DNA of 64,000 bases from assembly GCA_001897535.1 (NCBI GenBank), contig MKTC01000023.1:1-64000 (forward strand). The letters run 5' to 3'. Below, piece by piece: positions 1,427 to 5,065 of this stretch; positions within the stretch are counted from its first letter, which is position 1, and each line of letters begins with the position of its first letter. Below the pieces are notes generated by a model. The model saw nothing but the letters and a program-made list of their open reading frames with translations. It ran no database searches and was not told the origin of the DNA. The translations under genes were made by a program, and so were the position numbers. Source of the DNA: Bacteroidetes bacterium 37-13 (GTDB lineage: Bacteria > Bacteroidota > Bacteroidia > Chitinophagales > LD1).

Positions 1427-1558
1427 CTATAACAGGCGTTTGGCTCAATGGCGGTTGACGTGGTTAATTGAACATTCTGCCTCGCATCAACTTTTGTGGA
1501 TTATTGAAAATTTTGTGCTCCGAAATCCGCCACTGCGCCAAGCGCCAAACCGTTACCA
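1427..1558 (+). repeat. attC-like recombination site 2
   Basis: CTATAAC ... GTTACCA; arms GGCGTTTGGCTCAATGGCGG / CCGCCACTGCGCCAAGCGCCAAACCGTTACC; 132 nt. Confidence 0.65.
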
Positions 1559-1575
1559 CACATACTAAAAAGACA

Positions 1576-2109
1576 GTGCAGACAAAAAAGAACATACCAT
1601 ATTATTTGATAGCAGTAGGACTTTTCATCTTGCTGAAATTTGGCTTTACACTTGCTGACAATAACGACTTGACCTTTCTTCTCAAACCGACCGACAAACT
1701 CGTTGGACTTTTGACAGGTTCGCATTCTGTTTATCTTTCAGACAGCGGATATTTCCACGAGCATCTAAACATCATTATTGACAAATCTTGTTCGGGTTTC
1801 AACTTTTGGATTTTAAGTTTCCTACTATTTACTTATTTGACCGTAAAGCACTTTGACAGGACTTTAAGTAAAATCCTGACTATTCCGACTGCTTTAATTG
1901 GAGCTTATCTGCTGACCATATTTGTAAATACATCGCGAATTTTTGCTTCAATCCTTGTGCAGACTCAGACAAAAAGCATTTTTCTGAACCAACAATATAT
2001 TATACACGAAGCTATTGGCATAACTACTAACCTGACATTCCTTATTTTGGCTTATGTACTAATAGAAAAATTAATAATCCATAAACGATACAATGCGAAA
2101 TTTTCTTAA
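1576..2109 (+). CDS. xrtK: exosortase K (XrtK-like); likely GTG start at 1576, the listed ORF start at 1468 lies inside the attC-like repeat
   Basis: Multi-TM protein with exosortase-like residues: Cys in IIIDKSCSGFNFW, Arg in VNTSRIFASI, His in IIHEAIGI; immediately followed by an MSEP-CTERM protein, the known partner of XrtK. Confidence 0.82.
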   Translation: MQTKKNIPYYLIAVGLFILLKFGFTLADNNDLTFLLKPTDKLVGLLTGSHSVYLSDSGYFHEHLNIIIDKSCSGFNFWILSFLLFTYLTVKHFDRTLSKILTIPTALIGAYLLTIFVNTSRIFASILVQTQTKSIFLNQQYIIHEAIGITTNLTFLILAYVLIEKLIIHKRYNAKFS

Positions 2110-4918
2110 TCCGAAATGGCTTTTTGTCATTAACACGCTACCGTTGGTCGTGCTGTTTTTTCTTTTCTTTGGTCAGTTCAATATCATTAAAACTTTATTG
2201 GATGAAAGCAGAATCCAACTTTGGAAATCTTTTGGTCTTTCATTAGGAGTTCTTGGATTACTGAATTTTGCATATGCGGTTTATTTGACTTTAAAGAAAA
2301 AGAATGTTTCTGTATGGTTTGGTTTAATAGCCCTACTTTGTTACATCCCTTTCATTTATCTCTATGGATACCGTTTAGATAGAATCATTCCTTTTTCTAT
2401 CCCTCAATGGATGGTTTCGGGCAACATATTTTTATATGTTGGGACATTTCTAATGCCGACACTCGCCTATTCATTATTCGTTTTGGTTTCTCATTTTACA
2501 CCTGAAAACAAAGAACACAAGGCTTGGGTAAACTTTTTAATTGCAATTGGAATTCCGATTGCCGGTTACTTATTTACTCAAATCATTCTTCCTTTATGGC
2601 AACCATTTGACAGGAATTTTAGCGTTCACGCAATGCTGATTCTTGTAATTACTGCTACTTTAGTTTTTCTCTTTTTCTTAATAAGGGGCGTTTTTATACT
2701 TGCGACCAAAAAAGCGGAAACTTGGCAGAAATACCAATTAGTATGGAAAATTCCAATTGTTATAGTGCTTCCATTAGTAGGATTATCAGTAAACAACGGA
2801 CACCTGTTTAATAATTTTGGACCAAGTGAATCAGGAATTTTTGGAGATTTTAATAATGCTTGGTTTTATATTCTTGCCGTTGTTAATGGTATAATGGTTT
2901 GCTTACCCAACCTTGAAAACAAAATATACCGACTACTTGTATTCATCGGAAGAAGTATAACATTTGCATACACATTCTATTTTTTTTTAGTGTTTCTCCC
3001 TTTTTTACCTTTATCAGTAATTGCAATTATTGCAATCGGGACAGGATTTTTAATGCTAACACCTTTACTGCTTTTCGTTATTCACATCAACGAGCTTTCA
3101 AAGGATTTCACACATCTAAAAACTCTGTTTCCAAAGAAACTCATCATCGGAATTTCGTTATTGGGTTTTTGGGTAATTCCAGCATTTATCACAGTATCTT
3201 ACCAGAAAGACAAAAGCGCTTTAAATGAAACACTATCTTATTTATACAGTCCTGACTACTCAAGGCAATATGATATTGATAAAGTTTCGCTTCAAAAAAC
3301 GCTCAATGTTATAAAAAGCCATAAAGACCGCAGAGATAGCAGAGGGGGAATATTTGGCAATGGAATTCCCTATTTGTCATCGTATTTTAATTGGTTGGTA
3401 ATGGACAATCTCACTTTGTCTGATTCAAAAATAAACACCATTGAAAAAATATTTTTTGGTAATACTTCTTTTGGGTTACGACCTGAAAATATCCAAAACG
3501 ACAATGTTCAAATAAGTAATATTTCCACAAACAGCACTTACGACAAAACTCAAAATGCTTGGAAAAGTTGGGTTGACTTGGAAATAACCAACAAAAGCGG
3601 AAATACTTGGTTTTCAGAATATTCTACTACGATTGATTTGCCCGAAGGTTGTTGGATTAGCGATTATTATCTATATGTTGGAGACATAAAAGAGCCGGGT
3701 ATTTTAGCCGAGAAAAAATCGGCAATGTGGATATTTTCACAAATCCGAAATGAAAATCGAGACCCAGGAATTCTATATTATTTGACAGGTAATAAAGTTG
3801 CTTTCAGAGTGTTTCCGTTCGCAAAAGATGAAGTAAGAAAAACAGGAATAGAATTCTTACATAAAGAGCCAGTAAAGCTAAACATTGACAATAATGTAAT
3901 TGAATTAGGAAATATTGAAGAAACAATCTACGAAGACATTGAAACTGAAAATATCGCTTACGTTTTTTCCCAACAAAAACAAAAATTGAATTCGGTTAAA
4001 CGTAGACCATATTTTCATTTTTTGGTTGACGCTTCTAAAGACCAAAATAGTAATTTAACCGATTTTATCAAAAGAATTGAACAGGTTTTAGATGCCAACC
4101 AACCACTTTCAGAAAACGGAAAAATCAGTTTCGTAAACAGCTATGTAAACACCACAACCCTTGATAACGATTGGAAAGAGCAATATAAAAATCAAACTTT
4201 TGAAGGTGGTTTTTACTTGGACAGAGCAATAAGAACAACCTTGTTTAATGCCTACCAAGATAAATCGAAAACATATCCTGTTATTGTGGTCGTAACTGAC
4301 AGTATACAAAATGCTATTTTAGACAAAGATTTTACAGACCTCAAGTTTACTTTTCCTGAAAGCGACTTGTTTTTCAATCTTGACAAGAATGGTAATTTAA
4401 GAGAACATTCTTTATCGGAAAATCCTATAAAAGAACTTCCTGAAATACATAGAGAGTGTATGTTTTGTGAAACAGTTTTGGAACACAAATTATCGGACAA
4501 TTCAGTTGCCTATTTAGCAAACAATAATCAACCAAGCATCATTTTTAAAAAGGATATTTTTGAAGTTTCTGAATCAGAAATTAAAGAAAAAAATTGGCAA
4601 TCTGCTTTGACAATGCAGGGGCAATGGACTTCGCAAATCTTGCGTCCTGAAATTTCAGACAAAGAATGGTTGAATATGGTAAGATACAGCTTCATTTCTA
4701 AAGTAATGACACCAGTAACATCATATTTGGTAGTAGAGAACGAAGCTCAAAAAGCAATGCTGAAAAAGAAACAAGAACAAGCTTTGGCAGGCAACAAGTC
4801 ATTAGACCTTGGTGAAGATACTCAACGAATGAGCGAACCAAGTTTAATACTTTTGACAATCCTACTCGGACTTGCTATTTGGTACAGAGAAAAACGAAAA
4901 CGACAATGGACAGAATAG
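2093..4918 (+). CDS. MSEP-CTERM sorting domain-containing protein (multi-TM N-terminus, VIT-like/vWA-like middle region)
   Basis: 941 aa; C-terminus ...DTQRMSEPSLILLTILLGLAIWYREKRKRQWTE = MSEP motif + TM helix + basic tail; overlaps the xrtK end by 17 nt. Confidence 0.85.
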   Translation: MRNFLNPKWLFVINTLPLVVLFFLFFGQFNIIKTLLDESRIQLWKSFGLSLGVLGLLNFAYAVYLTLKKKNVSVWFGLIALLCYIPFIYLYGYRLDRIIPFSIPQWMVSGNIFLYVGTFLMPTLAYSLFVLVSHFTPENKEHKAWVNFLIAIGIPIAGYLFTQIILPLWQPFDRNFSVHAMLILVITATLVFLFFLIRGVFILATKKAETWQKYQLVWKIPIVIVLPLVGLSVNNGHLFNNFGPSESGIFGDFNNAWFYILAVVNGIMVCLPNLENKIYRLLVFIGRSITFAYTFYFFLVFLPFLPLSVIAIIAIGTGFLMLTPLLLFVIHINELSKDFTHLKTLFPKKLIIGISLLGFWVIPAFITVSYQKDKSALNETLSYLYSPDYSRQYDIDKVSLQKTLNVIKSHKDRRDSRGGIFGNGIPYLSSYFNWLVMDNLTLSDSKINTIEKIFFGNTSFGLRPENIQNDNVQISNISTNSTYDKTQNAWKSWVDLEITNKSGNTWFSEYSTTIDLPEGCWISDYYLYVGDIKEPGILAEKKSAMWIFSQIRNENRDPGILYYLTGNKVAFRVFPFAKDEVRKTGIEFLHKEPVKLNIDNNVIELGNIEETIYEDIETENIAYVFSQQKQKLNSVKRRPYFHFLVDASKDQNSNLTDFIKRIEQVLDANQPLSENGKISFVNSYVNTTTLDNDWKEQYKNQTFEGGFYLDRAIRTTLFNAYQDKSKTYPVIVVVTDSIQNAILDKDFTDLKFTFPESDLFFNLDKNGNLREHSLSENPIKELPEIHRECMFCETVLEHKLSDNSVAYLANNNQPSIIFKKDIFEVSESEIKEKNWQSALTMQGQWTSQILRPEISDKEWLNMVRYSFISKVMTPVTSYLVVENEAQKAMLKKKQEQALAGNKSLDLGEDTQRMSEPSLILLTILLGLAIWYREKRKRQWTE

Positions 4919-4931
4919 CAAGAAGTACGTG

Positions 4932-5065
4932 TGGTAACATCACCTATACGCAAGCAGGGGTTTGGTGCTTCGTAGGACAGGCAAGTGCTAAATTTAAAAT
5001 TCAGTTCTTCGTAGGAAGTGCAGTGGTTAAAATCCCTGCCTGCGTATAGCTGAGAACCGTTAGTC
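4932..5065 (+). repeat. attC-like recombination site 3
   Basis: TGGTAAC ... GTTAGTC; arms CTATACGCAAGCAGGG / CCCTGCCTGCGTATAGC; 134 nt. Confidence 0.65.

Follow-up and report, generated by a model that had tools for sequence, protein, structure and literature searches.

The exosortase K gene (xrtK) and the gene of its MSEP-CTERM substrate in Bacteroidetes bacterium 37-13 appear to be the cargo of one integron-type cassette, located at positions 1553 to 5059 of the window (the whole 64,000-nucleotide stretch of DNA that we analysed) and belonging to a chromosomal array. We give this reading a probability of about 0.86. The recombinase that it calls for, which is not an IntI, is inferred, and neither an excised circle nor activity was seen. 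At the level of DNA sequence, the reading is supported by the borders of the unit, its predicted folded sites, its matched ends and the copies of it that other genera carry amid different neighbouring DNA. Sequence comparison likewise shows transfer of the unit between distant relatives.

The gene pair and the ends of its cassette

Exosortase K and MSEP-CTERM proteins form a one-to-one enzyme/substrate system. In profile searches, XrtK matched TIGR04287 at 171.7 bits (cut-off 55) and the downstream protein matched TIGR04286 at 969.8 bits (cut-off 150). The two frames overlap by 17 nt (2093-2109), and both the identities and the overlap given in the initial annotation were borne out. Cys72, Arg121 and His144 of XrtK were invariant in an alignment with four homologues; we take them to be the active-site Cys, Arg and His of exosortases. 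Comparison of C-termini placed the MSEP motif of the substrate at residues 913-916, followed by a hydrophobic stretch and basic residues (C-terminus RMSEPSLILLTILLGLAIWYREKRKRQW), and what is known of exosortases in general points to cleavage of this tail by XrtK at the membrane. dN/dS values of 0.07-0.14 indicate purifying selection on the substrate gene. For xrtK, usable dN/dS values were obtained for two loci only, those of Balneola (0.20) and Marivirga (0.11). We found no paper naming exosortase K or MSEP-CTERM in the open-access literature, to which the search was limited.

This xrtK, at the start of a 93 kb contig, is the only one in the 3.12 Mb draft genome. It and the MSEP-CTERM gene are the sole genes between two attC-like sites, whose GTTA ends lie at 1555 and 5062. 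Like known exosortase K systems, the pair consists of the same two families, adjoining and overlapping; unlike the distant members, which have no such sites beside the pair, here the pair makes up one cassette. Table 1 lists the features of this part of the window.

Table 1. Features of the cassette array and its surroundings, in window coordinates (R1, covariance model of the sites)
Feature	Position	Strand	Remarks
Insertion sequence	2-595		
attC-like site, 1L end replaced by an insertion-sequence end	656-785	+	R1 81.2 bits; junction common to four contigs
DUF6155 cassette	780-1552	+	gene 820-1407, PF19652 86.1 bits; 10-nt start/own-end complementarity
attC-like site of the preceding DUF6155 cassette	1427-1558	+	R1 113.8 bits; its right end bounds the xrtK cassette upstream
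Cassette start box 1R, GTTACCACACATACT	1552-1566	+	in the circle, expected to pair with 4924-4938 except for a mismatched A at position 11
xrtK/MSEP-CTERM cassette	1553-5059	+	3,507 bp from crossover to crossover (G/TT); 10-nt start/own-end complementarity and 4 nt more past a mismatch; borders common to copies elsewhere
xrtK, exosortase K	1576-2109	+	177 aa, GTG start at 1576; TIGR04287 171.7 bits
MSEP-CTERM substrate protein	2093-4918	+	941 aa; TIGR04286 969.8 bits
Cassette end box 1L, AGTACGTGTGGTAAC	4924-4938	+	would pair with 1552-1566
attC-like site of the xrtK/MSEP-CTERM cassette	4932-5065	+	R1 94.9 bits; same site after the pair in Aequorivita and Flavobacterium sp. NRK F7
Neighbouring cassette, two small hydrophobic ORFs (5107-5388, 5397-5717)	5060-5808	+	between two sites; own-end match only 5 nt
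attC-like site of the 5060-5808 cassette	5681-5814	+	R1 105.7 bits
REP-associated tyrosine transposase	6456-6983	-	NF047646 108.3 bits; just past the last cassette

The cassette coordinates rest on the usual G/TT crossover, and a unit of about 3.5 kb that had been proposed from the sequence alone, bounded by attC-like sites, has exactly these coordinates. A cassette should consist of one or more genes followed by a single attC-type site, within an array, and its start box should be complementary to its own end box. The xrtK unit met both points, the second over 10 nt: the start GTTACCACAC (1552-1561) and the end GTGTGGTAAC (4929-4938) are exact reverse complements, a result independent of the covariance model. 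Such exact complementarity is expected if start and end meet in an excised circle. Cassettes of 3.9-4.3 kb are also present within the same system.

A blind search for the longest complementarity around all MSEP loci was weak, since shuffled AT-rich flanks also gave 9-10 nt, and it was replaced by a test at fixed positions. In this test the start was compared with the cassette's own end in 51 cassettes bounded by neighbouring detected sites of related arrays. At least 9 nt of complementarity was found in 35 of the 51, as compared with 1.1% of cross pairs. When the pairings of starts and ends were permuted, no more than 6 cassettes reached 9 nt, and 35 was reached in none of 10,000 permutations. 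As a control, the start was compared with the 1L box of the abutting site, and at least 9 nt was complementary in only 1/51 cassettes. The matched ends belong to each cassette and not to the site that it abuts. Sixteen cassettes had no long match; some of these may span undetected sites and others may have decayed. The paired outer box is 15 nt long with an invariant A mismatch at position 11, and pairing falls to the background level from position 16. This profile was drawn from the 35 cassettes chosen by their 9-nt match, so that positions 1-9 are at 100% by selection and positions from 10 onward are free.

attC-like sites of the array

The covariance model was built from the host genome's own sites. 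Because its training set included the window sites, their scores alone are not independent evidence. The model had 44 matches in the host genome, training sites included. When 26 host-genome sites were aligned, the named structure was paired in 93.3% of cells. Both sides had changed in 13 of 19 pairs of the hairpin, and pairing fell to 32-47% when the partners were slid. Thirty-one sites, 25 from the host genome and six from two other genomes, were used for geometry, and all shared one: a spacer of 1 nt (sometimes 2) to the left and 5 nt (6) to the right of a long stem, in which mismatches recur at set positions, mainly T-G at 5 and A-C at 14. There was no indel in the stem of 20 of them; in the other 11, the alignment placed an extra base on the right arm. 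Rfam gave no match in the window, and ARAGORN found no tRNA there.

Canonical attC sites carry extrahelical bases on the R''-L'' (left) arm (PMC2727003), and none was found on the left arm in the 31 sites. Other canonical features, namely the GTT/AAC R boxes, the L boxes and the variable terminal part, were present. Judged by sequence and predicted fold, the window sites are attC-like and not canonical attC. Like integron attC arrays such as the Vibrio cholerae superintegron, the system has tandem cassettes in the same orientation with GTT/AAC outer boxes and hairpin sites with a long variable terminal part, the sites are similar within a genome, and in relatives the array adjoins a tyrosine recombinase gene. 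Unlike in integrons, any extra base is on the right arm, the spacers are 1 nt on the left and 5 nt on the right, mismatches stand at fixed places, and the outer box has 15 nt with an invariant A mismatch. The attC bounds proposed in the initial annotation stood with corrections: attC-like hairpin sites do flank the pair, but the left-arm extrahelical bases are absent and the genome has no IntI.

Copies of the cassette in other genera

MSEP-CTERM relatives were encoded at 50 loci. Copies with 85-89% DNA identity were found in Aequorivita viscosa, Flavobacterium sp. NRK F7, an uncultured Bacteroidetes MAG, Balneola sp. EhC07 and a Marivirga MAG. The stretch common to the copies starts at window position 1546-1552, except in Flavobacterium sp. 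NRK F7, which has a similar upstream site and where it starts at 1519. It stops at 4917-4940 in three copies and at 5062, with the attC-like site included, in Aequorivita and Flavobacterium. The flanks of these copies are unlike one another, and similarity starts at or beside the cassette border and stops at the 1L box or the attC-like site; the neighbouring cassettes of the window were not found in the other loci compared. Start and end have changed together in Marivirga (GTTGCCACAC/GTGTGGCAAC) and in a Flavobacteriaceae MAG (GTTACAATCC/GGATTGTAAC), with the ends 3.4 kb apart in both. The Balneola copy has kept its start, while its end has decayed. In the substrate tree, the window sequence and the five copies form a clade of six rows (100/98) across Flavobacteriaceae, Marivirgaceae and Balneolaceae, and other Flavobacteriaceae have distant copies.

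xrtK was present in 4/399 sampled genomes of the phylum, the host included, and in 20/369 genomes of the host's order. Apart from the host, none of the same-genus or same-family genomes among those listed had it. Distant copies (Hymenobacter, Pedobacter and most Flavobacteriaceae) had no such sites beside the pair. The xrtK loci of the same order had no site within 1.5 kb flanks, which did not cover the downstream side past the substrate gene. Conserved flanks without attC sites in relatives had been named beforehand as grounds for rejecting the cassette. The close copies have other surroundings, not conserved site-less flanks, and in this respect the cassette passed; the distant copies lack such sites. 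Carriage of the pair as one integron-type cassette, as first proposed, is supported by the matched ends, the covarying hairpin, the border-precise copies and the absence of xrtK in the close kin listed.

The MSEP-CTERM protein had no match in the plasmid collection, and plasmid carriage of the pair is thus not supported. At two loci (L073, 7375-7505; L078, 11830-11959) the pair keeps its genes and 1L box and is then followed by a different attC-like site. From their sequences, these copies look like products of an exchange of gene and site at 1L.

The cassette could once have been mobile and now be frozen in this host, the array being a relic kept by descent. We consider this unlikely, though of the alternatives it survives best. 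The array is split over contigs and cut by insertion sequences, the recombinase is not adjacent to it in the assembly, and the cassette at 5060-5808 has weakly matched ends, all of which would fit a relic. However, the ends and the site of the xrtK cassette are intact and an open recombinase gene remains in the genome. Moreover, the absence of xrtK from the same-genus and same-family genomes listed implies that its acquisition was recent on that scale.

The candidate recombinase and the inferred movement of cassettes

No IntI scored over the TIGR02249 cut-off in the host genome. The best candidate enzyme is encoded by an open frame of 376 codons on another contig (C29), and scored 181.8 bits against TIGR02249 (cut-off 265). 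Its best NCBIfam match is the XerA-type model NF040815, at 201.8 bits with a cut-off of 220; two array-adjoining relatives are above that cut-off. A cassette-like start, GTTAGCACTCACCC, is visible at the contig end, and nothing more of an array. About 0.1 kb upstream of the start codon, on the opposite strand, the contig ends in GTTAGCACTCACCCTAAAAAGACAACG, which resembles cassette starts at other places in the host genome. The link of the recombinase to the window array is indirect, as they lie on different contigs of a draft genome.

Relatives of this recombinase begin arrays. By eye, the first cassette starts immediately downstream of the gene in Flavobacterium sp. NRK F7, Aequorivita and the uncultured Bacteroidetes MAG, and on the 5' side, divergently, in a Jejuia MAG; these first cassettes have matched ends of 9-10 nt in the four genomes. 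Covariance-model site matches occurred in 166/399 sampled genomes of the phylum and relatives of the enzyme (E 1e-45 or better) in 115/399. We then considered recombinase genes in genomes with listed sites, using the best-scoring listed sites only. Twenty of 44 lay within 10 kb of such a site (0.57 expected; random maximum 6), and 16 of the 20 nearby sites were on the same strand, 3' of the gene. A small cysteine-rich ORF adjoins the array recombinase divergently at four loci (L152, 9601-9984; L156, 223-588; L159, 1888-2292; L160, 1711-2064), and its copies at L152 and L160 had no NCBIfam match.

Like IntI, the C29 family are tyrosine recombinases that have the catalytic motifs, and they resemble IntI at the C-terminal end. 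Unlike IntI, all 35 family members aligned lack the IntI-specific insertion (roughly 40 residues, near patch III), and their catalytic K and HxxR regions are 64-69 residues apart, as compared with 106 in IntI and 70-75 in Xer. That insertion has been described as essential for integron function, although it is not fully conserved in an integron-like subgroup (PMC8138268). In contrast to XerA-type enzymes, their best NCBIfam match notwithstanding, the C29 family stands beside cassette arrays and has about 90 additional N-terminal residues ahead of the part that matches. IntI, Xer and the C29 family came out separate in the tree, with IntI and the C29 family apart from Xer (100/99), subject to a long-branch warning. 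Among open-access papers, we found none that describes cassette arrays run by a recombinase lacking the IntI insertion; subscription papers and preprints were not covered. Canonical IntI over the cut-off was found in 110/399 genomes of the phylum, nearly all outside the host's class, which is more than the surveys consulted imply for Bacteroidetes. IntegronFinder 2.0 reported one complete integron within Bacteroidetes proper, in Salinibacter ruber (PMC9024848).

With no IntI in the genome and no left-arm extrahelical bases in its sites, the array is not a canonical integron. It might still be the remnant of an ordinary one, an attC cluster without integrase, in which a canonical IntI, since lost or acting in trans, moved the cassettes. 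The GTT/AAC outer boxes, the hairpin sites and the cassette arrays would suit this, as would the IntI of those 110 genomes, but we regard it as improbable. Besides the missing enzyme, just one of the listed same-order and same-class genomes with a match (G037) has an IntI, though sites are common in those groups. The spacers of 1 and 5 nt, the 15-nt outer box and the lack of left-arm bases do not fit, and the recombinase that adjoins the sites is not an IntI.

In the mechanism that we infer for the cassette, a tyrosine recombinase would recognise the single-stranded hairpin and cut between the G and the TT of the 15-nt outer box. The cassette would be excised as a circle, its start box pairing with its end box, and circles would be inserted beside the recombinase's own gene or at another attC. 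The enzyme would be the C29 recombinase or a relative, from a Bacteroidota family without the IntI insertion, and mismatches, not extrahelical bases, may be used for strand choice.

Transposases are also present next to the array. The flanking elements (at 2-595 and 6456-6983), or homologous recombination between repeats, could in principle have moved the pair. This is very improbable, as several genomes in which the unit has different neighbours still have its borders at the GTT and AAC boxes, and the matching of ends goes with the cassette itself and not with the abutting site. That a resident gene pair merely has chance repeats on either side can hardly be maintained, for although most of the distant MSEP-CTERM loci lack such sites, the permutation and covariation tests, the 44 model matches and the border-precise sharing across genera all oppose it.

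An identical insertion-sequence end (...TTTTGA[AG]TCGTGCAACAGGCAC) joins the left arm of an attC-like site in four contigs, always at one and the same point: at window positions 600-670, at the starts of C26 (L044) and C3 (L045) and at the end of C32 (L047). From sequence, this common junction suggests an element that targets these sites at 1L. Further repeats were seen at array contig ends (starts of L046, L050 and L057; ends of L048 and L053), and a repeat ...GATTATGAACAACAATAAAAAACGTTAGTCAG lies ahead of a cassette start in L046, L050 and L057.

Exosortase systems are known as resident sets of an enzyme and its targets. Here the enzyme and its sole target make up a single unit that can be exchanged, in keeping with the patchy occurrence of exosortase K. 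As the two travel together, a recipient would gain a sorting module in one step. It seems rather probable to us that Bacteroidota have a second class of integron, with recombinases without the IntI insertion, a hairpin geometry of its own and large cassettes, a complete sorting module among them, spread across orders. A cassette system is indicated whose sites, found in well over a third of the sampled genomes, stand beside an enzyme without the insertion called essential (PMC8138268). Surveys based on IntI would overlook such arrays or list them as lacking an integrase. Whether the IntI insertion is needed for recombining folded sites is now a directly testable question.
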